Assembly: GCF_000826685.1 (NCBI RefSeq)
Contig: NZ_JROO01000047.1
Coordinates: 1-64,000, forward strand
Reading direction: 5' to 3'
DNA from: Streptomonospora alba
Lineage (GTDB): Bacteria > Actinomycetota > Actinomycetes > Streptosporangiales > Streptosporangiaceae
Length of the DNA: 64,000 bases
This document shows positions 32,611 to 57,500 of this stretch, in pieces. Position 1 is the stretch's first letter; each line of letters begins with the position of its first letter. A program made the translations under genes and the position numbers. The notes beneath the pieces are model-generated. The model was not told the DNA's origin. It saw nothing but the letters and a program-made list of their open reading frames with translations, and ran no database searches.

Positions 32611-32841
32611 CCGTGGTCTCCTCGGCGGCCCGACGCCGACGCACCATGATCCCCTCCGCCCGCGCGAGCAGCCCAGTCAGGTAGCAAACCTGGCTTAGCG
32701 GACACATTCGCGTGATCACCGGTCAGCGATGACTACCTTGACCGGCGTTGGAGCCCTTCTGAACCATGTAGGCGTGCGCATCCGTGGCATTGGTTTGGCT
32801 CATGCACCCGTCCTCCGCCGCCCCCGTCCCCTCGGCTCCAG

Positions 32842-35052
32842 GTGAGCATGGCCGCCCCGAACCACGGGACCGCCCGCGACGACGGCCGGGCGGCGCTGCT
32901 GTGCGTCGTCGACACCGTGCACGGCACCCAGGTCGCCGACCCCTACCGCTGGCTTGAGGACCCCGACTCCCCCGCCACCCGCCGGTGGCTGGCCGAGCGC
33001 GAACACGAGTTCGTCGCGGCCGCCCAGCGGTGGGCGCTGCGGGAGCCGCTGGCCGAGTGCATCGGCGACCTGGTGGCCACCGATCTGTGGACCCCGCCGC
33101 TGCGCCGCGGCCGCCGGGTCTTCGCCACCCGCCGGCCCGCCGGAGGCGACCACCCCGCCATCGTCGTCTTCACCGATCCCGATCCCGATGACGAAGGCGG
33201 GGACGGCGGCAGCGAGCGGACGGTCTTCGACCCGCAGGCCTTCGATCCCAGCGGCGCCACCACGCTGGACTCCTGGGAGCCCTCCCCCGACGGCGCGTAC
33301 GTGGCCGTGCAGACCTCCACCGGCGGCACGGAACGCGGGGCGCTGCGGGTGCTCTCGGTCCCCACCGGCCTGCCGGTCGAGGCGCCCGTCGAGGGCGTGC
33401 GCTACTCCAACGTCGCCTGGATCGGCCCCGACGCCTTCTACTACGTCCGCCGCGACGACGGCGACGGCCGCCGCGGCGTGTGGCTGCACCGCGTCTCGCC
33501 CACCGGTCCCGAGCCCGACGTGCTGGTACGCGCCTGCACCGGCCCGCGCACGGTTCCCGGCGTGCGGCTGCTGGGGCGGCGCTGGCTGGTGGTCACCGAG
33601 AGCCACGGCACCGGCCACCGCAACGACGTCTGGATCGCCGACCTGGCGCCGAGCGGCTCCGCCGCCGTGGCCGGGGCCTACGACGCTCCGCACTGGCGCA
33701 CCGTCCACTCAGGCGAGGAGATCGAGTCCCACCCCGACCTCGGCCCCGACGGCACGCTTTACCTGCGCACCACACTGGGCGCACCGCTCCGCCGCGTCTG
33801 CGCCACCGACCCACGCACGCCCGGCACCGCCCACTGGCACGAGGTCGTCGGCGAGGATTCCGAGGCCACCCTGGACGGATTCGCCGCCGTCGGCGCCGCC
33901 GAGCACCCCGAGGTACTGGTGACCCGCACCCGGTTGGGGATCAGCGAGCTCACCGGCCACGCCGCCGACGGCCGCCTGCTGCGCCGCATCGACCTGCCCG
34001 GTGAGGGCATGGTCACCCGGCTGGAGCCCGACGGATCCGGCGGCGCCCATCTGTGCTACGCCGACGTCGCCACCCAGCAGTGCGTCCTGGCGCTGGAGGC
34101 GGGCGGCACCCGGCCGCGCCCGTGGCCGCGGGGTTCGCAGCCGCGCCCGCCCGCCACCGTCCGGCGGCGCACCCTGCAATGCCGCTCGGCCGACGGCACG
34201 CGCGTGCCCGTCACCGTGTTCTCGGTCGTCGGCGGCCCGGGCGAGGACGGCTCCGGTTCCGCCGCTTCCGCCGAGCCCACCGAGCCGGGACCGACCATCC
34301 TGCACGCCTACGGCGGATTCGGCCGCCCCCGCCAGTTCGGGTTCAGCGCGACGGTGCTGGCCTGGCTGCTGGCCGGCGGCCGCTACGCGGTCGCCCACGT
34401 GCGCGGCGGCGGCGACTTCGGGCGCGAGTGGCACCTGCGCGGAGCACGCCGCAGCAAGCCGCGCTCGGTCGAGGACCTCGTCGCCGCGGCCGACGCCCTC
34501 GTCGAGGAGGGCGCGTGCAGCCGCGAGCAGCTGTGCCTTTCGGGCGGTTCGGCCGGCGGCCTGCTGGTCCTGGCCGCGGCGGCCCGGCGACCGGACGTGT
34601 GCGGAGCCGTCATCGCCTCGGCGCCGCTGGCCGACATGGCGCGGTTCGAGCGGCTGGGAATGGGCCCCATGTGGATCCGCGAGTTCGGCACCGCCGCCGA
34701 CCCCGAGGACTTCGCCGCGCTGATGTCCTACTCGCCCTACCACCGCGTTCTGGAGGACGGCGCCCGCGGCCGGCCCGCGGTGCTGCTGACCGGTTTCCAC
34801 GGCGACACCCGCACCGACGCCGCACATCCGCGCAAGATGTGCGCCGCGCTGCTGCACCACCGGACCGGCGAGCGCCCTGCGCTGCTGCGCTACGAGCACG
34901 ACGTCGGCCACGGCCCGCGCGCGGTGACCAAGGCGATCGAACTCGCCGCCGACGCCCACGCCTTCGCCGCCGACGCGACCGGTCTCGTGCTCCCGCGGAC
35001 GTCGGCGGAAGCGCCGGCCTCCCGGCTCGTGCGGCGGTGGGAGCAGGCGTGA
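32842..35052 (+). CDS. Prolyl oligopeptidase (S9 family), possible RiPP leader peptidase
   Basis: Cytoplasmic serine peptidase of 736 residues with the S9A plan. A beta-propeller (about 60-430) opens with DPYRWLEDPDSPATRRWLAEREHEF. A C-terminal alpha/beta hydrolase follows, with the nucleophile Ser570 in SGGSAGG, the Asp in FHGDTRTDAAHP and the His in EHDVGHGPR. Classic members have Asn where Ala571 stands here. HAYGGFGRP, HVRGGGDFGREWH and SYSPYHRV are further family blocks. The next gene is a 37-codon peptide with Gly-Gly. Prolyl oligopeptidases act as leader peptidases in some class III lanthipeptide pathways, so such a role is a reasonable inference. The start (GTG 32842 or ATG 32848) is uncertain. 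Confidence 0.88.
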   Translation: MSMAAPNHGTARDDGRAALLCVVDTVHGTQVADPYRWLEDPDSPATRRWLAEREHEFVAAAQRWALREPLAECIGDLVATDLWTPPLRRGRRVFATRRPAGGDHPAIVVFTDPDPDDEGGDGGSERTVFDPQAFDPSGATTLDSWEPSPDGAYVAVQTSTGGTERGALRVLSVPTGLPVEAPVEGVRYSNVAWIGPDAFYYVRRDDGDGRRGVWLHRVSPTGPEPDVLVRACTGPRTVPGVRLLGRRWLVVTESHGTGHRNDVWIADLAPSGSAAVAGAYDAPHWRTVHSGEEIESHPDLGPDGTLYLRTTLGAPLRRVCATDPRTPGTAHWHEVVGEDSEATLDGFAAVGAAEHPEVLVTRTRLGISELTGHAADGRLLRRIDLPGEGMVTRLEPDGSGGAHLCYADVATQQCVLALEAGGTRPRPWPRGSQPRPPATVRRRTLQCRSADGTRVPVTVFSVVGGPGEDGSGSAASAEPTEPGPTILHAYGGFGRPRQFGFSATVLAWLLAGGRYAVAHVRGGGDFGREWHLRGARRSKPRSVEDLVAAADALVEEGACSREQLCLSGGSAGGLLVLAAAARRPDVCGAVIASAPLADMARFERLGMGPMWIREFGTAADPEDFAALMSYSPYHRVLEDGARGRPAVLLTGFHGDTRTDAAHPRKMCAALLHHRTGERPALLRYEHDVGHGPRAVTKAIELAADAHAFAADATGLVLPRTSAEAPASRLVRRWEQA

Positions 35053-35097
35053 GCACCGCGGCATCCCAGGCATGCGGCCGCCGCACCGGCGGCCGCA

Positions 35098-35121
35098 CCC
35101 CCGCGCAGCACAGCGCGGGGG
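35098..35121 (+). terminator. Hairpin between peptidase and precursor peptide genes
   Basis: CCCCCGCGC and GCGCGGGGG pair perfectly across AGCACA, 45 bases past the peptidase stop. A second stem, CCCCC-TGA-CGGGGG, follows close by. It may end the peptidase transcript or act as an attenuator before the peptide gene. Confidence 0.5.
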
Positions 35122-35236
35122 CGGCACCTCCCCCTGACGGGGGTTGGCGGTGCACCGCCCCGCGCCCGAGGGCGCGGCCGGGCCTTGCGGCCGGCGGGCA
35201 CCGAGTGGCACATCCGCGAAACGAACAGGAGACGCC

Positions 35237-35350
35237 ATGGACCACAACGAGTTCGACGTCGAGGTCGAGGAGCTGACCGAGGTCACCTCGCGCGACATCA
35301 CCGCCGGCGGCGACAACGACGGCACCGACTCCAGCTCCGACTTCATCTGA
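35237..35350 (+). CDS. Candidate RiPP precursor peptide (37 residues, Gly-Gly motif)
   Basis: Small acidic peptide of 37 residues with no cysteine. The leader-like part contains FDVEVEELTEVTSRDI and ends in Gly24-Gly25. What follows is DNDGTDSSSDFI, rich in Asp, Ser, Thr and Asn. AGGAG lies five bases before the ATG, one of the best ribosome binding sites in the window. An upstream GTG would add 31 unrelated, Arg/Pro-rich residues and is rejected. The gene sits between a prolyl oligopeptidase and a JmjC oxygenase on the same strand. I infer that Gly-Gly marks a processing site and that the Asp/Asn-rich end is the oxygenase substrate. No family is recognised with certainty. Confidence 0.65.
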   Translation: MDHNEFDVEVEELTEVTSRDITAGGDNDGTDSSSDFI

Positions 35351-35453
35351 CCGACGACGTCGGCATGACCCATCCGTCACCGACAGGTCGCCGGAGCGCG
35401 TCGTGCGCCTCCGGCGGCCCGCCGCCGCAACCGCCGCAGTGGAGGCCCCCGTC

Positions 35454-36632
35454 GTGACCGACCGCCTGTTCACCGAGACGCTGCTCGCCGCCGTGGGCGA
35501 GGACCTCCTCTCCACGCGGCTGTCCACCGACGTCGTCTTCGCCGACCTCGGCGCCGAGACCGTCCGCCCGCTGCTGACCTTCGACGCGCTCAACGACATC
35601 CTGGCCCGCTGCGCGCTGGAGCCCCCGCGCCTGCGGCTGCACCGCAAGGGCGCACCGGTGCCCGCCGCGCGCTACACCGATTCGGGCAGCACCTCGGGCG
35701 CCGAGCGCGCGGTGATCCGCCCCGACGGCCTCTACCGTGAACTGCGGGAGGGCGCGAGCCTCGTGCTCGACGCCGTCGACCGGCTGCACACGCCCGTGCA
35801 GGAGGCCACCGACGACCTGATGCGGCTGGTGCGCGAACGGGCGCAGGTGAACCTGTATCTGATCTGGGGCGATTCCCACGGTTTCGACACCCATTGGGAC
35901 GACCACGACACCTTCATCGTCCAGGTCGAGGGAACCAAGTCCTGGCAGGTCCACGGGCCCGGCACCCGCCCGCACCCGATGAAGGTCGACTCCGACCACG
36001 GCCACAGCCCGCCCGAGGGCACCGTGTGGGAGGGCGTCCTCTCCCCCGGCCACGTCCTGCACGTACCGCGCGGGTGGTGGCACACGGTCAAGGGCACCGG
36101 CGACGTCAGCATGCACCTGACGTTCGGCTTCACTCGCGCGACGGGTATCGACTGGGCGCGCTCGGTCCTGGAACGCCTTTACGACGTAGATTTCTTTCGT
36201 ACCGACCTGCCGCGCTTCGACTCGGCCGAGGAGCGGCGCAAGCACCAGCACGAGCTGATCCGCCGGCTCGTCGACGTGGCCGAGCAGCACGACCTCGACG
36301 GCTTCCTGGAGGAGCACGACTCCCGCTTCCCCCGGCGCCAGTCCTTCGCCCTGCCCTGGGCGGTCGACGGCGCCACACCGCAGGCCGAGACCCGGGTGGA
36401 GTTCGTACCGATCCTGCCGCCGCCCATGCAGCGCGAGGGCGAGCAGGTCGCGGTCACGGTCTCGGGCAAGCGTTACCGCCTGCCCGCGGCGGCCGAGCCG
36501 GTACTGGCCGAACTCGCCCGCCGACCGCGCACGACAGCGGGCGAGCTGGCCGAGGACTCCGGCACCCCGCTGGAGACCACGGCCGCGGTCCTGCGCGCGC
36601 TCGTACGCCACCAACTGGTGCTGCTGCGCTGA
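35454..36632 (+). CDS. JmjC/cupin-like 2-oxoglutarate oxygenase with C-terminal winged-helix-like region
   Basis: A 392-residue Fe(II)/2-oxoglutarate oxygenase of the JmjC type, close in plan to ribosomal oxygenases such as RoxA/YcfD. The iron triad is visible: His147-x-Asp149 in DTHWDDHDTFIVQVEG and His210 in LHVPRGWWHTVKG. Lys162 (EGTKSWQVHGPG) is a candidate 2-oxoglutarate contact. The C-terminal 55 residues (RYRLPAAAEPVLAEL to LVRHQLVLLR) resemble the winged helix that binds peptide substrate in RoxA-type enzymes. Start: GTG 35454, eight bases after GGAGG; an upstream GTG at 35403 adds a Pro/Ala-rich stretch. It begins 103 bases after the small peptide gene, so peptide hydroxylation is the likely role (inference). 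Confidence 0.82.
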   Translation: MTDRLFTETLLAAVGEDLLSTRLSTDVVFADLGAETVRPLLTFDALNDILARCALEPPRLRLHRKGAPVPAARYTDSGSTSGAERAVIRPDGLYRELREGASLVLDAVDRLHTPVQEATDDLMRLVRERAQVNLYLIWGDSHGFDTHWDDHDTFIVQVEGTKSWQVHGPGTRPHPMKVDSDHGHSPPEGTVWEGVLSPGHVLHVPRGWWHTVKGTGDVSMHLTFGFTRATGIDWARSVLERLYDVDFFRTDLPRFDSAEERRKHQHELIRRLVDVAEQHDLDGFLEEHDSRFPRRQSFALPWAVDGATPQAETRVEFVPILPPPMQREGEQVAVTVSGKRYRLPAAAEPVLAELARRPRTTAGELAEDSGTPLETTAAVLRALVRHQLVLLR

Positions 36633-39263: not shown

Positions 39264-39282
39264 TTAGGGTAGCCTCATCTAA
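39264..39282. promoter_or_regulatory. Iron box (DmdR/IdeR-type) upstream of FhuF-like gene
   Basis: TTAGGGTAGCCTCATCTAA matches the 19-base actinobacterial consensus TTAGGTTAGGCTAACCTAA at 15 positions. It lies 110 bases before a predicted ferric-siderophore reductase, which fits iron-dependent repression. Confidence 0.65.
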
Positions 39283-39391: not shown

Positions 39392-40258
39392 ATGGCCGAT
39401 GAGCAGGCCCCGCTGCAGGCGGTGATCGACGCTTGCCGGCCGCTGAAGTTCGCGCCGCTGCCCGACGTGCGCACCACCTCCGTGCAGTCCGCGCGCGAGC
39501 ACCCGGCCACCGAGCACTGGTACCGCACCGACCTCATGGTCGCCGAGGGCGCGGTCGGCCCCTTGTTCAACCGCCTTACCGCTCAGCACGGCCCCGACCA
39601 CAAGCTGCCGGGCGCCACCCACTTCATGCGCGCGCTGCTGCGCGAGCCGATCTTCCTGGTCTCGGCGGGCATCTACCTCACCGGCAGGGCCACCCTGCTG
39701 GACGAGCGCCACCTGTGGTTCCCGTGGCTGTCCACCTCGGCCTTCGGCGCGCCCACCATCACCAGCACCCGCATGGCGGTACTGCCCGACGACCCGGCGG
39801 CGGGCCACCCCGACGCGGTCGTGGTGCCCGACGAGGACGCCCTCAACGCCATAGCCGCCCGCCACCTGGTGGGTGCGTTCTCCCCGATCATCGACGCGCT
39901 GCACGAGCACACGCGCGTGGGGCTGCGCACGCTGTGGGGATGGGTGCTCGACACCCAGCACTTCTACATGCTCAACCCGGCGCGCTTCCTGGGCCGCGAC
40001 GCCGAGGACGCCTGGCAGCGCGCCGGGGCCCTGGGCGAGGCGCTGATCGAGGCGGGCGCGGTCACCCGTGCGCGGCCGCGCCTGTTCCCCTTCTACGAGG
40101 AGCACCCGCGCGGCACCTGGGCCGTACGGGGCACGTGCTGCTTCGACTACAAGGGCGACCCCGAGCACGGTTTCTGCACCACGTGCCCCCTCAAGTGCGA
40201 CGACGACCGCCGCGCCGAACTCCAGGAGTGGATCCGCAACCCGGCCTTGGCGCCGTAG
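39392..40258 (+). CDS. FhuF-like (2Fe-2S) ferric-siderophore reductase
   Basis: A 288-residue protein ending in the FhuF-type iron-sulphur motif: RGTCCFDY...FCTTCPL, with Cys249-Cys250-x11-Cys262-x2-Cys265. FhuF proteins reduce ferric siderophores in the cytoplasm to free the iron. The N-terminal 245 residues match the FhuF-like fold loosely and lack membrane segments. An iron box upstream (39264-39282) links the gene to the siderophore locus that starts 8 kb further on. The ATG at 39392 has only a weak upstream site. A hairpin terminator follows. Confidence 0.8.
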   Translation: MADEQAPLQAVIDACRPLKFAPLPDVRTTSVQSAREHPATEHWYRTDLMVAEGAVGPLFNRLTAQHGPDHKLPGATHFMRALLREPIFLVSAGIYLTGRATLLDERHLWFPWLSTSAFGAPTITSTRMAVLPDDPAAGHPDAVVVPDEDALNAIAARHLVGAFSPIIDALHEHTRVGLRTLWGWVLDTQHFYMLNPARFLGRDAEDAWQRAGALGEALIEAGAVTRARPRLFPFYEEHPRGTWAVRGTCCFDYKGDPEHGFCTTCPLKCDDDRRAELQEWIRNPALAP

Positions 40259-44553: not shown

Positions 44554-46530
44554 ATGAGTCACGCGCCCTGGCCAGGGCCGGACCCCGCACTGGTGTCCGC
44601 CGCCCGTGACGGCGATCCGCAGGCCGTCGAAGAGCTGCTTTCGCAATCGCTGCCGCTGATCTACAACATCGTCGGCCGAGCACTGGACGGCCACAGCGAC
44701 GTGGACGACGTGGTGCAGGAGACCGTGCTGCGTGTCGTGGACCGTCTCGATCAGCTGGAGCGGCCGGAGTCGTACCGATCCTGGATGGTGGCCATTACCG
44801 TGCGGCGTATACGGGACTGGATCCGCGCCCGGCAGCGGTCGCAGGAGAACCTCCGGTCGCTGCCGCAGGCCGAGCACCTGCCCGACGCGTCCGACTTCGC
44901 CTCGCTGACGATCCTGCGGTTGAACCTGACCGACCAGCGCCGGGAGGTCGCCGAGGCCACGCGCTGGCTGGACGAGGACGACCGCGAACTGCTGTCGCTG
45001 TGGTGGCTGGAGCAGACCGGCCAGCTCGGGCGCTCCGAGCTCGCCGAGGCGCTGGGCCTGCCGGAACGGCACGCGGCCGTGCGCGTCCGCCGCCTGAAGG
45101 ACCAGTTGGACGTCGGCCGCACCGTCGTGCACGTCTTGGCCGCCCAGCCCGCCTGTCCGCAGCTCGGCGACATCACGAGCGGCTGGGACGGCCGACCGAG
45201 CCCGCTGTGGCGCAAGCGGCTGGCCCGCCACATTCGCCGCTGCCCCCACTGCGGCGACCGCACCGAACGGCTCGCGCCGGTGGAAGGGCTGCTGCGCGGA
45301 CTGCCGATGCTTGCGCCGCCGCTGCCGCTGTACCAGGCCCTCGCCGAATACATCCGGTTCGGCCTGCCCGACGCGGCTCAGGACGGCTCAGACCAGGGCT
45401 CCGCGGGATCGGCGGACACCGGCGCGCCCGCCGGCGGGGGCTCCGATCCGGTCGGCGGCACGCAGTCGCATGCCGGCCCGCCCTCGCACCACGGCGGGCA
45501 CGCTCCAGGTCTCCGCCGGGCGCGCCCGCCCGCGGCCCGGCGGAGCATCCTGGTCGCCGCGGGCGCGGGAGCTGTCGCCACGGGTGTCCTGGTCGCGTCC
45601 GCGCTGACGGACGACGGCCCGGCGTCGCCGCAGTCGGCCGCTCCCGCCCCGGGGCCCATGGCGGTCCGGGAGTCCAGCGAGGCTCCGGACTCTCCCTCGC
45701 CCTCCCCGTCGGCCTCGCCGAGCGCGGCCGCCTCCGCGGCGCCGCCGTCGCCGACCGCCGAGCCCGAACCCGACGCCGCCGAGGTCGCCGCCTCCGGCGG
45801 CAAGGGCGTCGGCGTGTGGGAGTTCGAAGGCGCAGACGCGGCGCTGCGGCAGTCGGGCGCCGGCTGGTACTACACCTGGTCCACCGCCCCTCCCGGCGTC
45901 GGCTCCGCGTCCGGGGCCGAGTTCGTACCCATGGTCTGGGGCGCCGACTCGGTCACGGACCAGGCCCTGGCCGAAGCCGAGGCGGCGGGCCCGTACCTGC
46001 TGGGGTTCAACGAGCCCGACATGGGCGAGCAGGCCGACATGACCGTGGAGCAGGCCTTGGAGCTGTGGCCGCGGTTGGAGGAGACGGGCAGCACTCTGGG
46101 AAGCCCCGCCGTGGCCACTGACGCCGACGTCGACGGCGGCTGGCTGGACCGGTTCATGACCGGCGCCGAGCAGCGCGGCCACCGCGTCGACTTCATCGCG
46201 GTGCACTGGTACGGCTCCGATTTCCGCACGGGTCCGGCCGTCGAGCAGTTGCGCGGCTACCTCGCCGCGGTCCACGAGAAGTACGGCAAACCGGTCTGGC
46301 TCACCGAGTACGCGCTGATCGACTTCTCCGACGGGACACCGCGCTACCCCGCCCCGGCACGGCAGGCCGCCTTCGTCACCGCGTCCTCGGCGATGCTGTC
46401 GGAGTTGCCCTTCCTCAAGCGCTACGCCTGGTTCGGCCTGGGCACCGACGAGGCGGGGCCGACCACGGCGCTGTACCGCGGCGGCCCCGCCCCCACGGAG
46501 ATGGGCAGCGCCTTCCAGACCGCTCCCTAA
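44554..46530 (+). CDS. ECF sigma factor / zinc motif / transmembrane / glycoside hydrolase (GH128-like) fusion
   Basis: One 658-residue polypeptide. Sigma region 2 (about 10-95) contains SDVDDVVQETVLRVVDRLDQL and SYRSWMVAITVRRIRDWIRARQR. Sigma region 4 (about 135-185) contains SELAEALGLPERHAAVRVRRLKDQL. His226-x3-Cys230-x2-Cys233 (HIRRCPHC) resembles the zinc motif of anti-sigma factors. A low-complexity linker leads to a transmembrane helix at 331-351, then a Ser/Pro-rich extracytoplasmic spacer. The rest (about 418-658) is a glycosyl-hydrolase catalytic domain of the Asl1/GH128 type, with Glu487 in GFNEPD and Glu585 in WLTEYALID as likely catalytic acids. Reading is continuous with no frameshift. 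The sensor-effector role is inferred. Confidence 0.85.
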   Translation: MSHAPWPGPDPALVSAARDGDPQAVEELLSQSLPLIYNIVGRALDGHSDVDDVVQETVLRVVDRLDQLERPESYRSWMVAITVRRIRDWIRARQRSQENLRSLPQAEHLPDASDFASLTILRLNLTDQRREVAEATRWLDEDDRELLSLWWLEQTGQLGRSELAEALGLPERHAAVRVRRLKDQLDVGRTVVHVLAAQPACPQLGDITSGWDGRPSPLWRKRLARHIRRCPHCGDRTERLAPVEGLLRGLPMLAPPLPLYQALAEYIRFGLPDAAQDGSDQGSAGSADTGAPAGGGSDPVGGTQSHAGPPSHHGGHAPGLRRARPPAARRSILVAAGAGAVATGVLVASALTDDGPASPQSAAPAPGPMAVRESSEAPDSPSPSPSASPSAAASAAPPSPTAEPEPDAAEVAASGGKGVGVWEFEGADAALRQSGAGWYYTWSTAPPGVGSASGAEFVPMVWGADSVTDQALAEAEAAGPYLLGFNEPDMGEQADMTVEQALELWPRLEETGSTLGSPAVATDADVDGGWLDRFMTGAEQRGHRVDFIAVHWYGSDFRTGPAVEQLRGYLAAVHEKYGKPVWLTEYALIDFSDGTPRYPAPARQAAFVTASSAMLSELPFLKRYAWFGLGTDEAGPTTALYRGGPAPTEMGSAFQTAP

Positions 46531-48590: not shown

Positions 48591-49406
48591 CTACTCCTCG
48601 TCCTCGTGGTGGTCGTGGTTGCTGGTGCCGCGCCGCCAGTAGCCGTCGACGTCGAAGCCCGTGCCGCGCTCGAATCCCCGTTCCTTGAGGTAGCGGCGGA
48701 TCGGCTTGAGAGTGGTGGCCTCGCCCGCGCACCAGGCGAACCCCCGGCCCTCGGGCAGCTCCGCGCCGCGGATGGCGCGCTCCAGCAGGTCGGTGCTGCC
48801 GGGGGCGGCTCCGTCGCGGTGCAGCCAGGCCACCGTGGCGCCGGCGGGAACGTCCAGGTCCTGCTCCTCGCCTGCGTCGGCCACCTCCAGAAACGCCAGC
48901 ACGCGCGCGTCGCGCGGCAGCTCCTGCTCCAGCCAGCGTGCGGCCGCGGGCAGGGCGGTCTCGTCGGCGCCGATGACGAAGTAGTCGAAGTCGTAGTCCA
49001 TGTGGTGGGTGCCGCGCGGACCGAGGACGCCGAGCCGGTCGCCGGGGCGGGCACGCACCGCCCAGCGGCCGCCCGGGCCGTGGTCGTGGGCGACGAGGTC
49101 GACGGTCAGCTCGTCGGCGTCGGCGTCGTAGCGGCGGACCGTGTAGTCGCGGTAGATCAGCTCCGGCGCGCGCATGTTCCACCGGCCGTCCTCGTTGAAC
49201 TGCGGGAGGTGGAGTTCGCCGGTCTCCTCGTTCGGGAAGAAGAGCTTCACGTGGTCGGTGAAGTTGTCGGTGCGGAAGCCGTCGAGGTCGTCCCCGGTGA
49301 GGACGACGCGGATCATGCCGGGGGTGATGCGCTCGACGGTGCGCGCCTGGAGGGTCCGGGAGCGCAGGGGGTAGAACTCCACGCGCGGGTCGCGGACGGT
49401 GGTCAT
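48591..49406 (-). CDS. Siderophore-interacting protein (FAD-dependent ferric reductase, SIP/ViuB type)
   Basis: Cytoplasmic flavin-dependent reductase that releases iron from ferric siderophores, 271 residues. The N-terminal FAD domain has RDYTVRRYD (Arg-x-Tyr-Thr flavin motif) near 85-93 and VLGPRGTH. The C-terminal NAD(P) domain ends with GFAWCAGEATTLKPIRRYLKERGFERGTGFDVDGYWRRGTSNHDHHEDEE, where WCAGE and GYWRRG are SIP hallmarks. The C-terminal tail is His/Asp/Glu-rich. The start at ATG 49406 follows AGGAG at ten bases. An iron box lies 88 bases upstream at 49494. It closes the siderophore locus. Confidence 0.92.
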   Translation of the reverse strand: MTTVRDPRVEFYPLRSRTLQARTVERITPGMIRVVLTGDDLDGFRTDNFTDHVKLFFPNEETGELHLPQFNEDGRWNMRAPELIYRDYTVRRYDADADELTVDLVAHDHGPGGRWAVRARPGDRLGVLGPRGTHHMDYDFDYFVIGADETALPAAARWLEQELPRDARVLAFLEVADAGEEQDLDVPAGATVAWLHRDGAAPGSTDLLERAIRGAELPEGRGFAWCAGEATTLKPIRRYLKERGFERGTGFDVDGYWRRGTSNHDHHEDEE

Positions 49407-49493
49407 GAGCGCATCACTCCTGTCGTGTCGGGCGTGGCCGCGCAGGGCGGCGGGTTCGGGTTCCGCGCCGCGGACCGGACCCCTGCGCGCACT

Positions 49494-49512
49494 TTAGCTT
49501 AGGCTTGGCTAA
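49494..49512. promoter_or_regulatory. Iron box upstream of siderophore-interacting protein gene
   Basis: TTAGCTTAGGCTTGGCTAA matches the DmdR/IdeR consensus TTAGGTTAGGCTAACCTAA at 15 of 19 positions. It overlaps the stop codon of the upstream MFS gene and sits in the promoter of the reductase. Confidence 0.75.
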
Positions 49513-50867
49513 CTCGACAGCCCGGGTTCGTCCGGACCGCCGCCGTCGGCGGGTCTGTTCGCCGCGGGGGCGGGCGGGCGCGGCTGCGCGGACGCGTCCT
49601 CGGCTCCGCTGCGACCGTCGGCGTTGGCGGCCCGACGCAGCCCGGGCGCCGCCGCTGCCAGCACCGCCACCAGGACCACGGTCACGGCGCCGCCGGCCGT
49701 CACGGCCGCACCGGCACCGATCAGCGGGGCCAGCGAACCCAGAGCGAGCGCCCCCAGCGCCCCGCCCACGGTGTTCTGTGCGCTCCAGACGCTGTTGACC
49801 CGCCCGCGCAGCGCGTCGGGGGTGTGCGACTGCAGCAGCGCGAAGCGCAGCACCTCCTCGACGATCTCGGCGAAGCCGAGCACGACCAGCGCCGCTACAG
49901 CGAGCGCCACCTGGCCCGAGGCGCCGAAGGCGGCCGACGCCGCCCCGCAGCCGGCCACCGCGGCCAGCAGCACCGTGCCGCTGCGCCGAACGGTGCCGGT
50001 CCACCCGCTGGTGACCGAAGCCAGGACCGCGCCGAGGGCGGAGGCGGAGTACAGGAGGCCGGCGACGGTCTCGCCCGCGTGCAGCACGGTGTCGGTGAAC
50101 TCGGGGATGAGCACGTAGGGCGTGGCGAACAGCAGCTGGACGAATCCGAGCAGCAGCAGCGGCCCGACGGTGCGGTGCCGGGCGGCGAAGCGCATCCCGT
50201 CGACCGCTGCGGCCGCGATCGCCTGCCTGCCCCCGCCGTGTTCGGCCTCCGGCGCCAGCGGCGGCAGGCGCAGGACGAGCAGAGTGGTGAGCACGCTGAC
50301 TGCGGCGGTGATGCCGAAGACGGCGGGAAAACCCCACAGCGCGATGACGGCGCCGCTCAGTGCGGGCGCGGCGATGGACCCGAGCTGGCCGGTCAGTGCC
50401 AGCAGCGCCCCGGCGGCGGGCAGCCGATCGCGCGGGAGCAGACCGGGCACGGCCGCCTGCAGCGCCACGGTGCTGAAGGTGCCGACGAAGCCGTTCAGCG
50501 CCGCGCAGGCGCAGATCACAGCGAAGGCCGCCTCGGCGCCGCCGCTTTGGGCCCACACCGCGTTCAGCGTGAGCCCGGTGAAGGCGACCGCGGCGGCGCC
50601 GCGCCCGGCGACGATCAGCCCGCGGCGGGGGAACCGGTCGGCCAGCACTCCCCCGACCAGCGTGCCTCCGAAGATCGAGACGCCGTTGACCGCGCTGACG
50701 ACGGCGACCAGGACCGAGGACCCGGTGGTCGAGTAGACCTGCATGGGCAGCGCCACCATGGCGAATCCGAGCCCGAAGACCGAGATCAGCCGTGCGGTGA
50801 ACACCACCCGGAACGCGTGGCTGACGCGCAGCGGGGTGAGGTCGATGAGCGCGTTGCGCAGCTTCAC
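49509..50867 (-). CDS. EntS-like MFS siderophore exporter, copy 1
   Basis: A 452-residue major facilitator of the EntS type. It opens VKLRNALIDLTPLRVSHAFRVVFTARLISVFGLGFAMVALPMQVY and has GGVLADRFPRRGLIV as motif A. ADRF/PRRG, SAPALSGAVIA and RGRVNSVWSAQNTVGG are shared with the paralogue at 51236. The C-terminal 40 residues are Pro/Ala-rich. The GTG at 50867 follows GGAGG by seven bases. It lies directly after mbtH on the same strand, so both probably share the iron box at 51217. The presumed job is export of the siderophore made by the adjacent NRPS. Confidence 0.88.
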   Translation of the reverse strand: MKLRNALIDLTPLRVSHAFRVVFTARLISVFGLGFAMVALPMQVYSTTGSSVLVAVVSAVNGVSIFGGTLVGGVLADRFPRRGLIVAGRGAAAVAFTGLTLNAVWAQSGGAEAAFAVICACAALNGFVGTFSTVALQAAVPGLLPRDRLPAAGALLALTGQLGSIAAPALSGAVIALWGFPAVFGITAAVSVLTTLLVLRLPPLAPEAEHGGGRQAIAAAAVDGMRFAARHRTVGPLLLLGFVQLLFATPYVLIPEFTDTVLHAGETVAGLLYSASALGAVLASVTSGWTGTVRRSGTVLLAAVAGCGAASAAFGASGQVALAVAALVVLGFAEIVEEVLRFALLQSHTPDALRGRVNSVWSAQNTVGGALGALALGSLAPLIGAGAAVTAGGAVTVVLVAVLAAAAPGLRRAANADGRSGAEDASAQPRPPAPAANRPADGGGPDEPGLSS

Positions 50868-50985
50868 CGGCCCGCCTCCGCAGGGGCGCGGCCTTCGCCG
50901 AGCGCGCACCCGTGGTCACCGTGGACGTCCTCCGGTGACCAGGGGGGCACGGTCGACGCGGTTCTGTGCGGCGGAGCGCTCCGCC

Positions 50986-51198
50986 TCACGCCTCGCCCAT
51001 CGCGACGCGCAGACTCCGCGGGCGCAGGTCGGTCCAGTTCTCCTCGACGTAGGCCAGTGCGGCCTCCCTGTCGACCGGGCCGTGCACCTGCCGCCAGCCG
51101 TCGGGCACGGCCGCGAACTCCGGCCACAGCGAGTGCTGGTCCTCGTCGTTGACCAGCACCAGGAAGCGGCCTTCGGGGTCGTCGAAGGGATTGCTCAT
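50986..51198 (-). CDS. MbtH-like protein
   Basis: A 70-residue NRPS partner that binds and stabilises adenylation domains. The signature N-x-E-x-Q-x-S-L-W-P-x5-P-x-G-W is fully present ([19 protein letters not shown]), followed by [16 protein letters not shown] lies seven bases before the ATG. An iron box (51217-51235) sits 19 bases upstream. The linked NRPS genes are the obvious partners. Confidence 0.96.
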
Positions 51199-51216
51199 AC
51201 CGCGACTCCAATCACT

Positions 51217-51235
51217 TTAGGAAAGGCTTACCTTA
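51217..51235. promoter_or_regulatory. Iron box upstream of mbtH
   Basis: TTAGGAAAGGCTTACCTTA matches the DmdR/IdeR consensus at 15 of 19 positions. It lies between the MFS stop (51236) and the MbtH start (51198), so it can control mbtH and the exporter downstream. Confidence 0.75.
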
Positions 51236-52510
51236 TCAAGCTCGCGTCTCGTCGGGAAGGGGCGGCACGACGCCGCGGGTGGACAGCAGACCCGGCGCCG
51301 TCAAGGCGATCGCACCGACCAGGGCCGCCCCCGCCGCTCCGGCCGCGACCAGCGCCGCCGCCGTGCCCAGGGCGGTGGCGAGCCCGCCCATCAGCGACGC
51401 GCCCAGCGACCCGCCGACCGTGGCCTGGGCCAACCAGGCGCTGTTGACCCGCCCTCGCAGCATGTCGGGGGTGTGGGCCTGGATGAGGGAGTAGCGGAGG
51501 ATCTCCTCGACCGCCTGGAAGCACCCCAGCAGCACCAGCGCGACCAGCGCGAGCACCGCGCTGCGGGCGGCGCCCAGCAGCACCACCGAGACACCGCACA
51601 TCGCCACCGCCGCGGGCACGATCGGGCCGGTGCGGGCGATGCGGCCCGTCCATCCGCTGGTCAGCGACGCCGCCAGCGCGCCGGCCGCCGGGGCGGTGTA
51701 GAGCAACCCGGCCAAGGCCGCATCGCCGCCCAGTACACGGTCGGTGAACTCGGGGATCAGCACGGTGGGCATCGTGAACAGCACCTGGGTGAAGCCGAGC
51801 AGCAGCAGCGGGCGCACCACCGGATTGCGGGCGACGAACGCCAGCCCGTCGGCGACCGCGCGCAGCGCGGGGACGTCGTCCGCGGCCCCGGCCAAGGGCG
51901 TCGGCGGCACGAACCACACCGCCGCGGTGGCGACGGCGGCGATCGCGCAGGTGGCGAGGTAGCCGGCGCCCACACCGCCCAGCGAGATCAGCGCGCCGCC
52001 CAGCGCCGGCGCCGCCGCCGCGCCCGACTGGGCGGTCAGCGCGAACAGCGCGCCGGCGGCGGGCAGCCGGTCGGGGCCCACCAGCGCGGGCACCATGGAC
52101 TGCTGGGCGATCAGCCCCATGGTGCCGATGACGCCGTTGACGGTGGCGCACACATAGATCACGGCCAGCAGCGGTCCGCCCGGAAGGTAGGTGTTGACCG
52201 CGAACATGCCCACGACCAGCGTCTCCACCGCCAGGCTCACCAGCATGAGCCGGCGCCGGTCCAGCTTGTCGGCCAGCAGCCCGCCGAGGGCGGTGCCGGC
52301 GAAGCTGGCCAGCCCGTTGACGACACTGACGCTGGCGACCAGCACCGACGAGCCGGTCATGGCATAGACCTGCATCGGCAGGGCGACGAGTCGGAACCCG
52401 CCGCCGAACAGCGAGATCAGCCGGACCGCGAAGACGATCCTGAACCCTCTGCCGCTGCGCAGCGGGCTCAGGTCGATGACCAGGCCCCGCAGTACCGGCC
52501 TCGCGGCCAC
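51236..52510 (-). CDS. EntS-like MFS siderophore exporter, copy 2
   Basis: A 424-residue paralogue of the exporter at 49509. Nearly the same N-terminal block is seen (FRIVFAVRLISLFGGGFRLVALPMQVYAMTGSSVLVASV), with GGLLADKLDRRRLMLV as motif A and RGRVNSAWLAQATVGG. About twelve helices. The GTG at 52510 follows GGAAGGGGG by five bases. The gene lies between the acyltransferase and mbtH. It has no iron box of its own and is probably expressed with the upstream acyltransferase or binding-protein genes. Two exporters may handle different siderophore forms or act together (inference). Confidence 0.87.
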   Translation of the reverse strand: MAARPVLRGLVIDLSPLRSGRGFRIVFAVRLISLFGGGFRLVALPMQVYAMTGSSVLVASVSVVNGLASFAGTALGGLLADKLDRRRLMLVSLAVETLVVGMFAVNTYLPGGPLLAVIYVCATVNGVIGTMGLIAQQSMVPALVGPDRLPAAGALFALTAQSGAAAAPALGGALISLGGVGAGYLATCAIAAVATAAVWFVPPTPLAGAADDVPALRAVADGLAFVARNPVVRPLLLLGFTQVLFTMPTVLIPEFTDRVLGGDAALAGLLYTAPAAGALAASLTSGWTGRIARTGPIVPAAVAMCGVSVVLLGAARSAVLALVALVLLGCFQAVEEILRYSLIQAHTPDMLRGRVNSAWLAQATVGGSLGASLMGGLATALGTAAALVAAGAAGAALVGAIALTAPGLLSTRGVVPPLPDETRA

Positions 52511-52664
52511 GCCGACCCCCTTCCGCGCTCGTCGGAGGTCCCCGTCCGGCCGCGCGAGGGCGCCCCTCGGGCGCGGACCGGTCGCGGCCTGTGGCCGCCC
52601 CGCGGCGCAGGACCCTGCGGCCGGGCGACCTCGCATACGCCCGTGTGCGCCCCGGCGACCGCCC

Positions 52665-53306
52665 TCACTCGCGCGTCCGGACGAACAGCGCCGCCCGCTT
52701 GTGCGGCAGGTCGACCTCGGCGAGGAAGCCGAGCCCGGCCTTGCGGGCCGCACGGCGGGCGGCGGCGTTGTCGGCGTCGGGCTCCATGAGGATGCGCCGG
52801 CAGCGCGGATCGGCGGCGAAGACGGCGGCGGCGAAGGCGTCCAGGATCTCCTTGCCGACGCCGCGGCCGGTCTCCCCCGGGTCGCCGATGGCGATGTGGA
52901 ATCCGATGTCGTGCGGTTCGGCGTCGTAGTGCCAGGCGATGACGTCGCGCGCCGCCCGGTACAGCTCGACGTAGGCCAGGTCGACGCCGTGGCTGCTGAC
53001 GACGAACGGCCGCGAGAAGGTGCCGGCGCGCTGCGAGGCGAGTTCCTCGGCCCAGTGCTCGCGGCTCCAGGCCTGGTCGTAGAACGGGGCCACGTGCGGG
53101 AGGTTCATCCAGGTGTGCACGGCGTCCAGGTCGGCGCCGTGCGGCTGGGCCTGGCGCGCGGAGTAGGGCGGCGCGAGCGTCGGAGTCGGCGGCGGGCCGA
53201 CGGCGAGGACGTCGGAGCCGACGGGGATCTCGCGGGGTGAGGGGCGGTACGCCGCGTCGGGCGCCTGCCCGGTGCCTGTCGATTCGGGCACGGACACGTG
53301 CGTCAC
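52665..53306 (-). CDS. GNAT acyltransferase of siderophore synthesis (IucB/RhbD/MbtK-like)
   Basis: A 213-residue acyl-CoA-dependent N-acyltransferase. It ends with the conserved RILMEPDADNAAARRAARKAGLGFLAEVDLPHKRAALFVRTRE, and HDIGFHIAIGDPGETGRGVGKEILDAF is the CoA-binding block. HTWMNLPHVAPFYDQAW is characteristic of enzymes that acylate N-hydroxy-lysine or N-hydroxy-ornithine in hydroxamate siderophores. The matching amino-acid monooxygenase is not in this window and may lie to the right. Start uncertain: GTG at 53306 or the in-frame GTG at 53297, which has a better placed GGAG. Confidence 0.85.
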   Translation of the reverse strand: MTHVSVPESTGTGQAPDAAYRPSPREIPVGSDVLAVGPPPTPTLAPPYSARQAQPHGADLDAVHTWMNLPHVAPFYDQAWSREHWAEELASQRAGTFSRPFVVSSHGVDLAYVELYRAARDVIAWHYDAEPHDIGFHIAIGDPGETGRGVGKEILDAFAAAVFAADPRCRRILMEPDADNAAARRAARKAGLGFLAEVDLPHKRAALFVRTRE

Positions 53307-53394
53307 CTCCGGTCGTGCCCCGCGGACCGGGGCGGTGTGCTGGCGTTTGCGGGCGGAACGAGGGCGGGCGCCGCGGACTCGCGCCGCCGCGCCC

Positions 53395-53426
53395 GGCGGG
53401 CGCCCGGGCCGTGCCGGGCGCCCGCC
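53395..53426 (-). terminator. Hairpin after the siderophore-binding protein gene
   Basis: GGCGGGCGCCCGG (53395-53407) and CCGGGCGCCCGCC (53414-53426) pair perfectly over 13 bases across GCCGTG, 34 bases past the stop. It may limit read-through into the acyltransferase gene. Confidence 0.6.
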
Positions 53427-53460
53427 GAGGCGCGCCGTGCCTGCGGGCGCGCCGGACGGC

Positions 53461-54432
53461 TCACAGGTCCTGCAGGACGCGCTCCTCCAGCTGGTCGAAG
53501 AGGTCCAGGCCGGTCGTGTAGCTCATCGCGCCCAGTTGCGGGACGGAGTAGACGCGCTCGTCCTGGACGGGCTGCAGGTCCTGCCACGGCCCCTGGTCCA
53601 TGACCTCCTGGATGGGCTCGGTGGGATCGCCCTCGGCGTCGGCGCGGGTGAGGACGACGTCGTACTCGTTCAACCGGTCCAGGTTCTCCAGCGGCAGGGA
53701 CTCGCTGAAGTTGCCGTCGTCGGACTCGGGGGTGAAGCGCAGGCCGGCGTCGGCGGGCACGGTGGTCCCGTGCGAGCCCTGGTGCTCCAGGGTCCACTTG
53801 CCGTCGCCGTAGGCGTCGATGGAGACGAAGGTGGTGTCGGCGAGGACCTCGGAGTACTCCTCGCTGAGTTCGGCCGCCCGCGTGTCGTAGGTGTCGATGA
53901 GCTTGGAGTGGGCGTCGGAGACGCCGGCGGCGTCGGCGATGCGCCGGTTCATGTCCTTCCATTCGGAGGGGATGTTCATCGCGGCGACCGCGACGGGGGC
54001 GATCCGCTCCAGCTTGGAGTAGTCGAACTCCATGGCGGCGGGCAGGCCGGAGACGATCAGGTCGGGCTCCAGTTCGGCGACCTTCTCGACGTTGATCTCC
54101 AGGTCGCGGCCCACCTGAGGGAGGCCCTGGGCCTTCTCCAGTTCCGCAGGGGTCATGCCGGTGTCGTGGGTGCCGCTCGAGACCCCGACCAGGTTCGCCT
54201 CCTCCACCGAGATCAGCGGGGTCACGGCCCAGCCGATGGCGACGATGCGCTGGGGGTCTCGGGGGATCTCCACCGGCTGATCGGCGTGGTCGCTGGTGAA
54301 CTCGCGCACGGGAGCGGACTCGGACCCGCTCTCCTCGCCCTCGGCGCCGCTGGTGCAGCCGCTGAGTGTGAGTGCCGCCGCGGCGATCAAACCGATGCCC
54401 CATCGGGGGATCAAGGCGCGGTATCGGTTCAT
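53461..54432 (-). CDS. Siderophore-binding lipoprotein (ABC transporter, FecB/FhuD type)
   Basis: Extracytoplasmic substrate-binding protein of 323 residues for a ferric siderophore. The lipoprotein signal is an Arg-rich start, a hydrophobic stretch and the lipobox LTLSGC with Cys26. The mature part has two lobes joined by a long helix, with the family blocks RIVAIGWAVTPLISV and VAELEPDLIVSG. The ATG at 54432 (MNRYRALIPR) follows GGAG by five bases and is better than the ATG at 54447. An iron box lies just upstream. The permease and ATPase genes are not adjacent, so they are encoded elsewhere. Confidence 0.9.
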   Translation of the reverse strand: MNRYRALIPRWGIGLIAAAALTLSGCTSGAEGEESGSESAPVREFTSDHADQPVEIPRDPQRIVAIGWAVTPLISVEEANLVGVSSGTHDTGMTPAELEKAQGLPQVGRDLEINVEKVAELEPDLIVSGLPAAMEFDYSKLERIAPVAVAAMNIPSEWKDMNRRIADAAGVSDAHSKLIDTYDTRAAELSEEYSEVLADTTFVSIDAYGDGKWTLEHQGSHGTTVPADAGLRFTPESDDGNFSESLPLENLDRLNEYDVVLTRADAEGDPTEPIQEVMDQGPWQDLQPVQDERVYSVPQLGAMSYTTGLDLFDQLEERVLQDL

Positions 54433-54452
54433 GGAGACTCCAGACATCTATG

Positions 54453-54471
54453 GAAGGTGAGGCTTACCTTA
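54453..54471. promoter_or_regulatory. Iron box upstream of siderophore-binding protein gene
   Basis: GAAGGTGAGGCTTACCTTA matches the DmdR/IdeR consensus at 14 of 19 positions and shares the core AGGCTTACCTTA with the box upstream of mbtH. It lies 21 bases before the lipoprotein start, where a bound repressor would block transcription. Confidence 0.65.
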
Positions 54472-54531
54472 GAGGGTTGATGCGGGGGTGGGACAAGCGG
54501 GTGCGGCCGCCGCGCGTTCGGGGGGCGGGGA

Positions 54532-57500
54532 TCACCCCGTGCGGTCCGGGGGTCCGGCAAGGCGGGCGGCGAGGACGGGGCCGATGACCGCCAGGCCTTC
54601 GGAGGCGAGCAGATCGTCGTGGGCGGTGGGGACCTCGTGGTGCTCGACGCCGCCGCCGATGCCGTGCTCCCAGGCGCGGGCGGCGCCGGCGGGGGCGTCC
54701 TTGGCCGTGAAGCAGAGCGCATCGCCCATGTGGCGGGGCGGCTCCTCGCCGACGGAGGCGGCCAGGACCTCGGCGGCCCAGCGACGGTTCGCCTCGGCCA
54801 TGCCGGCGTCGCCGCGTTCGGCGCCGATCCGGGCGGCCAGCGCGGCGGCGCCGGCATCGGCCGGCCGCTCCGGTTCCTCCCCGGCTCCGGTCCCGGTGGC
54901 TCGGGCGCCGCGCCGTGCGTGCCAGGGCGCCGGGTAGGCGTCCAGCAGCGCGAGCAACTCGACGTCCGCGCCGTCCCGGGCCAGCTCGGCGGCCACGGCC
55001 TGGGCCAGGGTCCCGCCGAAGGACCACCCGGCCAGCCGGTAGGGGCCGTGCGGGTGGGCGCGGCGGATACGTCGGGCGTAGACGCCGGCGAGTGCGGCGA
55101 CGGTGCCCGCGGCGGTTCCGCGCGCCGGCGCCTCCACTCCCAGGAGCGGCACGTCGGCGCCGATGTGGCGGCGCAGTCCGACGAAGGGCCAGCTGAACCC
55201 GCTCGCGGGGTGCAGGCAGAACAGCGGTGCCTGCTCGCCGCCCGAGCGCAGTACGACGACGCCGGGCTCGCCCGGGGCCTCCTGCGGCGCGGCGGACCCG
55301 GGCCGGTCGGCCCGGCCGCCCGGCCCGGCGCCGAGTGCGGCCAGGTGCGCGGCGAGCGCACCCGGCGAGGGATTGGCGAACAGGTCGGCGATCGCCGCGC
55401 GGGTGCCGGTCTCGGCCTCGACACGTGAGCGCAGCCGCACCAGCAGCATCGAGTGTCCGCCGAGGTCGAAGAAGTCGTCGTCGGCGCCGACCCGGTCGGC
55501 GCCCAGCACCTCGGCGAACACCTCGCACAGCACCGCCTCGGCGGCGTCGCGCGGCTCGCGCCCGGGCTCCGGCGCGAGCTCGGCCGGGTCGGGCGCAGGC
55601 AGCGCGTCGCGGTCGAGCTTGCCGTGTGCGGTCAGCGGCAAGGACTCCAGCGGCAGGAACGCCGCGGGCACCATGTAGTCGGGCAGTCGCCCGGCCAGGT
55701 GGGCGCGCAGCTCGGCGGTACCGGGACCGCCCCTGCCCCGCGCCGCACCGCCGGCCGAGGACGTCCCCTCGGACGCTCCGCCCTCTCCGGAACCGCGCTG
55801 CCGCTGCTGCCCGCGGACGACGTAGGCCACCAGCCGCCGATCCCCCGGCGCGGCCTCCCAGGTGTCGACGACCGCCTGGTCGACGGCGGGGTGCTCGCTC
55901 AGCGCCGCGGCGATCTCTCCCGGCTCGACGCGGAAGCCGCGCACCTTGACCTGGTCGTCGGCGCGGCCGACGTAGTCCACCGACCCGTCGGGCATCCGCC
56001 GCACCAGGTCGCCGGTGCGGTACATGCGTGCGCCTGACGCGCCGAAGGGGTCGGCGACGAACCGGTCGGCGGTCAGCCCGTGGCGAGCGAGGTAACCCCG
56101 CGCGAGCCCGGCGCCGCCCAGGTACAGCTCTCCGACCACGCCCGGCGGCACCGGACTCAGCCGCTCGTCGAGCACGTAGGCGGCGGTGTTGGCGGTGGCG
56201 TAGCCGATGACCGGGCGCTCGTGTCCGGCGGCACGGGCCGCCAGGGCGTCGACCGTGGCCTCGGTGGGTCCGTAGAGGTTGAAGGTGACGGTGCCCCGTT
56301 CCTCCAGCTCGCCCAGCCGCCTCCACAGCGACGCCGGCACCGCCTCGCCGCCCACGCCCAGCGTCAGCGGGGTGTGCGTGCCCGGCTCGCCCAGTCCGGC
56401 GCGCATCAGCTGCAGCAGGTGGGAGGGGGTCACCTCGATGAAGTCCATGCGCTCGGCACGGATGCGCTCAACCAGCAGCGCGGGGTCGTGCATGGCCTCC
56501 TCGGTGACGACGTGCACGGCGTGGCCGTCCAGCAGCCACAGCTGCGGCTGCCATGCGGCGTCGAAGGAGAACGACCAGGCGTGGCCCACCCGCAGCCGGT
56601 CGCGGCCGGCGCGGCGCCGCGTGGGCCGGTGCAGCGTCTCGCGGTGGCTGTGAAACAGGTTGGCGACGCTGCGGTGGGTGACCACGACGCCCTTGGGCCG
56701 TCCGGTGGAGCCGGAGGTGTAGACGACGTAGGCGGGGTGGTCGGGGCGCAGCGGCGCGGTGCGGTCGGCGTCGGCGGGATCGGTCGCCGACCGCTCGGCC
56801 GCTGCCTGCGGGGTGAGCGCGAGGATCCCGCGGGCCCCCAGCGCGGCCGCGCGCTCCCCCAGCTCGGGAGTGGTGGCGGTGAGCAGCGGGTCGGCGTCGC
56901 TCAGCATGTGGGCCACGCGTTCATCGGGGTAGGCGGGGTCGATCGGCAGGTAGGCGGCCCCGGCCTTGAGCACGGCCAGGATCGCGACCAGGGTGTCGGC
57001 CGAGCGCGGCAGCAGCAGCGCGACGACCGCCTCCGGCCCGGCGCCGCGGGCGATCAGCTCGTGGGCGAGGCGGTTGGCGCGCCGGTTCAGCTCCGCGAAA
57101 ACGTGGCTCTCGCCCTCGCATACCAGCGCCGGGAGATCGGGGCCCTCGGCGACCGCGGCCTCGAACAGGGCGGGGACCGTCTCCGGGGCGGACACCGCGA
57201 CGCGCGGGCCCTGGGCGTCGCGGGTGAGTCGGGCGGACTCCTCGGCGGTGAGAAGGCCCAGCCGCCCGATGGGTGCGGCGGGGTCCTCGGCGGCGGCCGC
57301 CAGCAGCCGCTCCAGCCGCAGCGCGATGTTGCGCACCGTCGCGTCGTCGAACAGGTCCAAGCTGTAGTCGACGACACAGCGCATGGCCCCGCCGTCGGGA
57401 CCGGCGCTCTCGCCGGGGTCGCGGAACTCCACGGCCAGGTCGAACTTGCCGCCGGGGGCGGCCACCGGCTCGCGCTCGGCCTGCACGCCTTCCATGGCCA

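Follow-up and report, generated by a model that had tools for sequence, protein, structure and literature searches.

Three consecutive genes on the plus strand of Streptomonospora alba contig NZ_JROO01000047.1 encode a prolyl oligopeptidase (POP), a peptide of 37 residues and a JmjC oxygenase, which raises the question of what a protein with the fold of a ribosome-modifying enzyme does beside so small a neighbour. The window, i.e. the whole stretch analysed here, comprises positions 1 to 64,000 of this contig. All three genes lie where the first-pass annotation, which had proposed them as a minimal pathway for a ribosomally synthesized and post-translationally modified peptide (RiPP), placed them: the POP gene at 32842..35052 (with a second ATG at 32848), the peptide gene at 35237-35350 and the JmjC gene at 35454..36632. 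Our data point to a ribosomally made precursor peptide and, in the JmjC protein, a dedicated Fe(II)/2-oxoglutarate hydroxylase for it, which together represent a family of JmjC-modified ribosomal peptides, a reading to which we assign a probability of roughly 0.58. As in RiPP pathways, a small gene for a candidate precursor is clustered and conserved with the gene of a putative modifying enzyme, and this pairing is broader than the trio first noted.

The small gene starts at an ATG behind an AGGAG site and, as had been described, encodes an acidic peptide without cysteine (MDHNEFDVEVEELTEVTSRDITAGGDNDGTDSSSDFI). It was called unprompted by a codon-usage gene caller trained on the window and the fetched loci, and 43 distinct peptide sequences were found across 74 loci of close JmjC orthologues. 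The ratio of nonsynonymous to synonymous polymorphism (pN/pS) was 0.13 for the 35-residue peptides (36 sequences) and 0.41 for those of 37 residues (14 sequences); the codon score, these ratios and the conservation rule out a chance open reading frame. The twelve C-terminal residues of 56 distinct peptide sequences from Nocardiopsaceae read D-[SNT]-D-G-[TS]-D-[SG]-S-S-D-F-I, with 9 of the 12 positions invariant, and the first residues are variable. In the window this end (D26-I37, D-x-D-G-[TS]-D-x-S-S-D-F-I in the clade) occupies 35312..35350 including the stop codon, preceded by the putative leader, M1-G25, at 35237..35311. The search pattern for the end itself fixed six of the twelve positions and was combined with a ribosome-site filter; without this filter it matched 75 of 76 loci, and a pattern-free tblastn search shows the same conservation. 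Together with the pN/pS values, the conservation of the end shows that it is the part of the peptide under the strongest selection. The first-pass annotation had expected a conserved leader with a variable Asp/Asn-rich end, and within Nocardiopsaceae the reverse is true. Two Pseudonocardia peptides have a different leader and share the end D-N-D-G-S-D-x-x-S-D-F-[IV]. Conservation of this kind would fit a single, unvarying product that serves a core function better than a diversified antibiotic.

The clade leader is hydrophobic-acidic (F/I-x-V-E-V-E-[ED]-L). The Gly24-Gly25 step highlighted earlier is present in the window peptide and its first glycine is conserved in the clade, but Gly25 is replaced in 3 of the 56 distinct clade sequences and Gly-Gly is absent from both Pseudonocardia peptides; we therefore rejected it as a general processing site. 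Neither Pfam nor NCBIfam gave a match for the window peptide, and scans of the peptides with both yielded one chance-level Pfam match. A lanthipeptide was rejected because cysteine, a family match and a synthetase among the scanned neighbours were all missing.

To what extent does the peptide accompany the oxygenase? A JmjC match at E ≤ 1e-20 is present in 63 of 200 genomes of the family, 41 of these at 59% identity or more, and in 42 of the 396 genomes of a phylum-wide draw. The peptide adjoins the JmjC gene in 74 of 76 close-orthologue loci scored, and both misses are explained: in L044 the peptide is seen yet fails the ribosome-site filter, and L062 begins at a contig edge. With a fixed filter, a short, cysteine-free, Asp/Gly-rich peptide gene was found before 88 of 111 distinct JmjC genes compared to 13 of 557 controls, which were other genes of the same loci; genes sharing a start were counted once, and those with less than 300 nt upstream were left out. 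The nine filter misses among 59 close JmjC genes all carry the peptide by pattern search, and even below 55% identity an acidic peptide precedes 38 of 52 JmjC genes. All of these are locus counts, not species counts, because the locus sets overlap in species (L001-L030 with L031-L075, L001 being the window; L076 and L080 are on the same contig). The pairing extends to other actinomycetes, where the first-pass annotation had proposed to look for it, and a lack of peptide genes beside related JmjC genes, which it had named as evidence to the contrary, was not seen where we examined them.

The peptide ends differ between JmjC clades. In a JmjC tree of 52 rows, groups A, B, B2, C and P, which we labelled by their peptide or, for some rows in which the filter retained none, by gene context, each lie on one side of a branch. 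Type B peptides end in ...PSDGGGTGKSDLNDN, and of the 12 type B loci for which a gene table was available, 8 have genes of both an aldo/keto reductase and an APH-like protein behind the JmjC gene (assigned by Pfam in L084 and by clustering in the others). Type C peptides carry Asp/Gly repeats such as GPADGGSNPEGHDGGADGTA or DADGTDGDGTDG and mostly occur with a Suc_Fer-like gene (20 loci); in L110, L123 and other type C loci the repeats DGGADG and DADGTDG stand before the JmjC gene. Among the 41 peptides listed from beyond the close clade, Asp-Gly is found in the C-terminal part of 37, and cysteine in none. Several genomes (e.g. G006, G018, G043, G086 and G147) have a second, divergent JmjC gene with another peptide type. 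Type B peptide-JmjC sets are also carried by Streptomyces plasmids, and in three of four plasmid records a 49-residue 'hypothetical protein' with the type B end is encoded directly upstream of the JmjC gene, with the aldo/keto reductase behind. The plasmid loci L131, L132 and L133 are peptide-JmjC-aldo/keto reductase cassettes, on plasmids that PLSDB types as mobilizable; the third gene had a Pfam match in none of the three, though its position is that of the APH-like gene of L084.

The JmjC gene was assigned by Pfam (PF08007), alignment, profile and Foldseek comparison. The GTG at 35454 fits the ribosome site best, with an alternative GTG at 35439, and numbered from 35454 the iron triad is His147, Asp149 and His210 as originally given; it is invariant in 48 of 48 aligned sequences (the window and 47 of 118 full-length JmjC genes). 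Profile comparison matched NO66 (E 4.5e-44), and Foldseek with the AlphaFold2 model (mean pLDDT, the predicted local distance difference test, 92.3) found NO66 (E 1.6e-23) and YcfD (E 2.1e-17), both with a template modelling (TM) score of about 0.6; these two and MINA53, all protein hydroxylases, are the closest solved folds. Across the hits to NO66, MINA53, YxbC and YcfD, TM scores are about 0.43-0.66 and root-mean-square deviations mostly 7-9 Å, so that the likeness is one of domains, not of a rigid whole. The protein combines the JmjC domain, the HxD...H triad and a predicted C-terminal winged helix of a ribosomal oxygenase. The winged-helix-like tail that had been noticed from the sequence is seen in the model: the segment encoded at 36393..36626 shows strands and then three helices by DSSP, an order matching both winged helices and RiPP recognition elements (RREs), and it can be aligned in 20 relatives at 16-36% identity (86% in the nearest).

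Several observations weigh against the peptide being the substrate of this enzyme, a role suggested by gene position. The tail has no RRE or PqqD-type match in Pfam and only weak helix-turn-helix matches, and it may correspond to nothing more than the winged helix that ribosomal oxygenases have; as no RRE family matches, a leader-binding role is one that we infer. Below 55% identity, the filter retained no peptide for 14 of the 52 JmjC genes, and group D of the tree, which lacks a clear peptide, does not hold together (three changes). The leaders of the close clade and of type B are weakly alike (hhalign probability 31.6%, E 5e-4, in one comparison), and matches to a simple leader motif were seen in 8 of 16 type B, 6 of 8 other and 0 of 17 type C peptides. 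Finally, neighbourhood clustering revealed no exporter that is constant across the clade.

If the peptide is nevertheless the substrate, the C-terminal winged-helix domain, positioned where RiPP enzymes have an RRE, would hold the hydrophobic-acidic leader and so bring the D-x-D-G-[ST]-D-x3-D-F-I stretch at the C-terminus to the iron site. Hydroxylation at the beta carbon would take place there on at least one Asp residue, with those of the D-G step the likeliest; Asp is the likely target because Asp-Gly is the most widely shared feature of the peptide types. Trimming or turnover would then fall to the locus-specific POP-type enzyme, which in the window species would cut at a non-Pro site.

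The most surprising part of the data is what else recurs beside the JmjC gene. In the window it is followed, beyond a TetR gene and the gene of a DLH-family hydrolase, by a plus-strand gene (39392..40258; PF11575) for an FhuF-like protein of the ferric-siderophore-reductase type. The FhuF-like protein reaches the Pfam FhuF_C cut-off (27.3 versus 20.5 bits) and falls below the curated NCBIfam FhuF cut-off (TIGR03951, 25.1 versus 63.85 bits), and a CC-x-C-x2-C [2Fe-2S]-type ligand motif is present in it (CC-x11-C-x2-C at residues 249-265) and in 40 of 40 cluster members. An FhuF-like gene lies within six genes of the JmjC gene in 40 of 49 neighbourhoods, and in some Nocardiopsaceae only, an ABC-2 exporter pair and a TetR gene lie in between. 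Close FhuF (at least 55% identity) and close JmjC (at least 59%) orthologues share the same 41 of 200 family genomes; these 41 genomes form one clade, and the co-occurrence is therefore not independent. A distant contig (L076/L080) has its own JmjC-FhuF pair. Both Pseudonocardia loci instead have a different, ferredoxin-like partner of the Suc_Fer-like kind (PF06999 by scan in L068, by clustering in L072), and in type C a Suc_Fer-like gene overlaps or directly follows the JmjC gene in 12 of 13 measured loci, overlapping the JmjC stop in 11. The Suc_Fer-like cluster has HxGGD in 20 of 22 members, compared to HxGGH, which we take to be the family motif. Nocardiopsaceae, L076/L080, Pseudonocardia and type C are thus four lineages in which a [2Fe-2S]-type partner, from one of two unrelated families, accompanies JmjC. 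The first-pass annotation regarded the trio as the full unit; the FhuF-like gene also belongs to the conserved set, and since [2Fe-2S]-type proteins recur across lineages while POP is seen only in the Nocardiopsaceae version, the trio is not that unit. A second FhuF-like paralogue, 33% identical, lies elsewhere in the same genome (G000:C78:75439-76185).

In each of the 52 loci scored, the FhuF-like gene is preceded, at a distance of roughly 60-145 nt, by an iron box with 2-4 mismatches to TTAGGTTAGGCTAACCTAA, presumably the IdeR/DmdR-type consensus, versus 7-11 in shuffles; in the window it is at 39264..39282, with three mismatches. In L076/L080 the box lies between the two genes, and in the two Pseudonocardia loci it is in the shared intergenic region, with 4 and 5 mismatches. 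A scan of 512,232 bases found six sites with at most four mismatches and none in shuffles, four of the six at an FhuF-like or Suc_Fer-like partner and two in the non-ribosomal peptide synthetase (NRPS) cluster of the window. This siderophore-type cluster runs on the minus strand from 48591 to 63998, at the window end, with genes for an SIP-type FAD protein, two MFS proteins, a GNAT acetyltransferase, a Peripla_BP_2 binding protein and a 2499-residue NRPS; its boxes, at 49494 and 51217, have four mismatches each.

Beta-hydroxyaspartate is a bidentate Fe(III) ligand of siderophores, and the hydroxylated peptide could accordingly be a ribosomal iron ligand, in which several Asp residues become beta-hydroxyaspartate and the FhuF-like or Suc_Fer-like reductase frees the iron by reduction. 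The iron-boxed partners in Nocardiopsaceae, L076/L080 and Pseudonocardia, the shared 41 genomes, the arrangement in type C and the invariant Asp spacing in the peptide end all speak for this possibility. We nevertheless consider it unlikely, as the clade POP-peptide-JmjC operon has no upstream iron box (iron-box control of this operon was rejected on the POP promoter region), type B and C loci have no box with four or fewer mismatches (the best upstream one, in L097, has six), no exporter or receptor is constant across the clade neighbourhoods, the co-occurrence comes from one clade, and 8 of 12 type B loci have the aldo/keto reductase and APH-like gene instead. It is rather doubtful, too, that JmjC-made, cysteine-free beta-hydroxyaspartate peptides form a class extending across the phylum, in which the Nocardiopsaceae member would be a siderophore-like RiPP that binds iron through hydroxyaspartate and gives up its Fe(III) when reduced by a dedicated [2Fe-2S] enzyme.

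The same recurrence of two unrelated [2Fe-2S]-type families in four lineages also speaks for these proteins being electron donors that keep the JmjC iron reduced. The hydroxylated peptide would then have no part in supplying iron and might, for instance, be a D-x-D-G peptide that signals or binds Ca; the D-x-D-G-x-D of the end resembles what we take to be Ca-binding loops. The separate iron box of the FhuF-like gene and the TetR and ABC-transporter genes that often part it from JmjC argue otherwise, and to our knowledge the known ribosomal oxygenases work without such a partner, which leaves this alternative tentative and also unlikely.

We find it improbable that the JmjC protein is instead a ribosomal oxygenase for a ribosomal protein, with the peptide an unrelated conserved small protein or a decoy. 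Its closest solved relatives are indeed NO66, MINA53 and YcfD, and the 5.9 Mb source genome has one JmjC gene of this kind, the only one found. In contrast, the peptide accompanies JmjC across deep divergence, several genomes have the second JmjC with another peptide type, and a Streptomyces plasmid would be an odd place for a housekeeping ribosome modifier. An association of JmjC orthologues with ribosomal protein genes, which had been offered as a possible refutation, was not seen: no such gene is among the Pfam-scanned neighbours of the window, L053, L072 or four annotated plasmid stretches. Pfam scans covered the neighbours in the window, parts of L053, L072, L084, L110 and L093, and single genes elsewhere, and the remaining neighbourhoods were compared by clustering.

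The POP (PF02897/PF00326; best PDB match prolyl endopeptidase 2bkl, E 2.7e-88) belongs to a family with homologues in 196 of 200 family genomes. The locus enzyme is an additional paralogue, specific to the clade and distinct from the POP found family-wide, with close orthologues of 61-86% identity (some of partial length) in at least 38 of the 41 close-JmjC genomes when five first-look candidates were scored per genome. It was rejected as a defining part, since L068, L072 and the distant loci have no POP match. A gap of 11-67 nt between POP and peptide in 38 of 42 loci indicates that the two are probably one operon in most of them; the window is one of the four exceptions, with 184 nt and strong predicted hairpins. 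This gap (35053-35236) is dense in such hairpins, with a fold z-score of -2.78 for 35053-35200. The catalytic Ser/Asp/His of the S9A triad and the S1 tryptophan are intact, whereas GGSN is changed to GGS[AT], W-x-x-E-Y to W-x-R-E-F and D-T-R-V to D-T-R-T in all 14 locus POPs compared, out of 43 neighbourhoods with POP, with one family-wide POP from the same genome and with solved POPs. The window peptide has no proline, at a cleavage site or elsewhere, and a Pro-specific peptidase therefore cannot release it, so that the trimming proposed at first fails here as a Pro-directed step; the POP may still be involved in processing, but in the window species its role would not be that of a Pro-specific leader peptidase. 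Release of the product by Pro-directed leader cleavage, rejected outright for the window peptide, is very improbable as a general route: the intact catalytic residues and S1 tryptophan, the locus-specific paralogue and a mid-leader Pro in a few clade peptides are set against clade prolines that mostly stand in the starting M-D-P and never in the conserved end, and against the Asn, Tyr-to-Phe and Val-to-Thr changes near the active site in 14 of 14 enzymes.

Upstream of the POP gene, a conserved promoter-proximal block on the plus strand (32686..32746, AAACCT ... TTGACCGG) emerged from 13 aligned upstream regions, with CTTGACC in all 13; it contains TTGACC and no recognisable -10, and a sigma-70 scan of the block found no standard site. 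A G+C-rich hairpin is predicted between the peptide and JmjC genes (35386..35419, plus strand; fold z-score -2.59 for 35345-35453), and a terminator scan gave nothing useful. The nearest named relative in the genome scan, Streptomonospora sp. PA3, is 90% identical. Elsewhere in the window, the open reading frame 44593-46530 joins a sigma-70 region 2 domain to a glycosyl hydrolase core (PF11790), which could reflect either a gene fusion or a mistake of the gene caller.

If the peptide is the substrate, a ribosome-modifying fold acts as a peptide maturase with many natural precursors, the class could be mined from genomes through short Asp-Gly peptides just upstream of PF08007 genes, for which the plasmid cassettes form a compact gene set, and an accessible enzyme for Asp hydroxylation in peptides would be at hand. 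It would also give a physiological role to actinobacterial proteins annotated merely as 'cupin domain-containing protein'. If the iron link holds as well, a ligand familiar from non-ribosomal siderophores could also be made by way of the ribosome.

In the open-access literature, with subscription papers mostly outside the search, we found no description of the peptide-JmjC pairing, and the YxbC/asnH literature gave no lead. Among known systems, NO66/RIOX1, MINA53/RIOX2 and RoxA/YcfD share the predicted fold and iron triad with the window JmjC protein; according to their structure entry titles, NO66, MINA53 and YcfD hydroxylate His or Arg of ribosomal proteins, unlike the peptide context here. 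The ferric-siderophore reductase FhuF has the C-terminal Cys motif and the iron box in common with the FhuF-like protein, which, in contrast, misses the curated cut-off and adjoins a JmjC-peptide operon. Prolyl oligopeptidases of the LanP and FlaP types act in RiPP pathways, presumably likewise with an S9A gene beside that of the precursor, whereas the window precursor has no Pro and the active-site neighbours of the locus POP are altered. Bregman et al. 2025 (PMC12710340) describe fish and algal fusions of a PF08007 JmjC protein with an RRE-like domain and state that bacterial homologues occur in RiPP-like settings; these share the Pfam domain and, if the tail is RRE-like, the second domain with our protein, and the part of that paper drawn on here gives no precursor family, substrate or product, unlike the pairing reported here. 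Closest in logic are the biphenomycin-type RiPPs, where BipG, BpmG and PbsQ are likewise JmjC or cupin-like Fe/2-oxoglutarate enzymes working on a clustered ribosomal precursor; in the portions of the two reports used here (PMC12707348, PMC12257519), their clusters also contain MNIO, B12-radical-SAM and arginase-type genes and BipG is described as an Orn hydroxylase, a likeness by description and not by sequence comparison. As JmjC-type enzymes that hydroxylate a RiPP precursor, BipG (PMC12707348) and PbsQ (PMC12257519) provide, as far as those portions go, the precedent for a JmjC protein that would modify the peptide encoded at its side.

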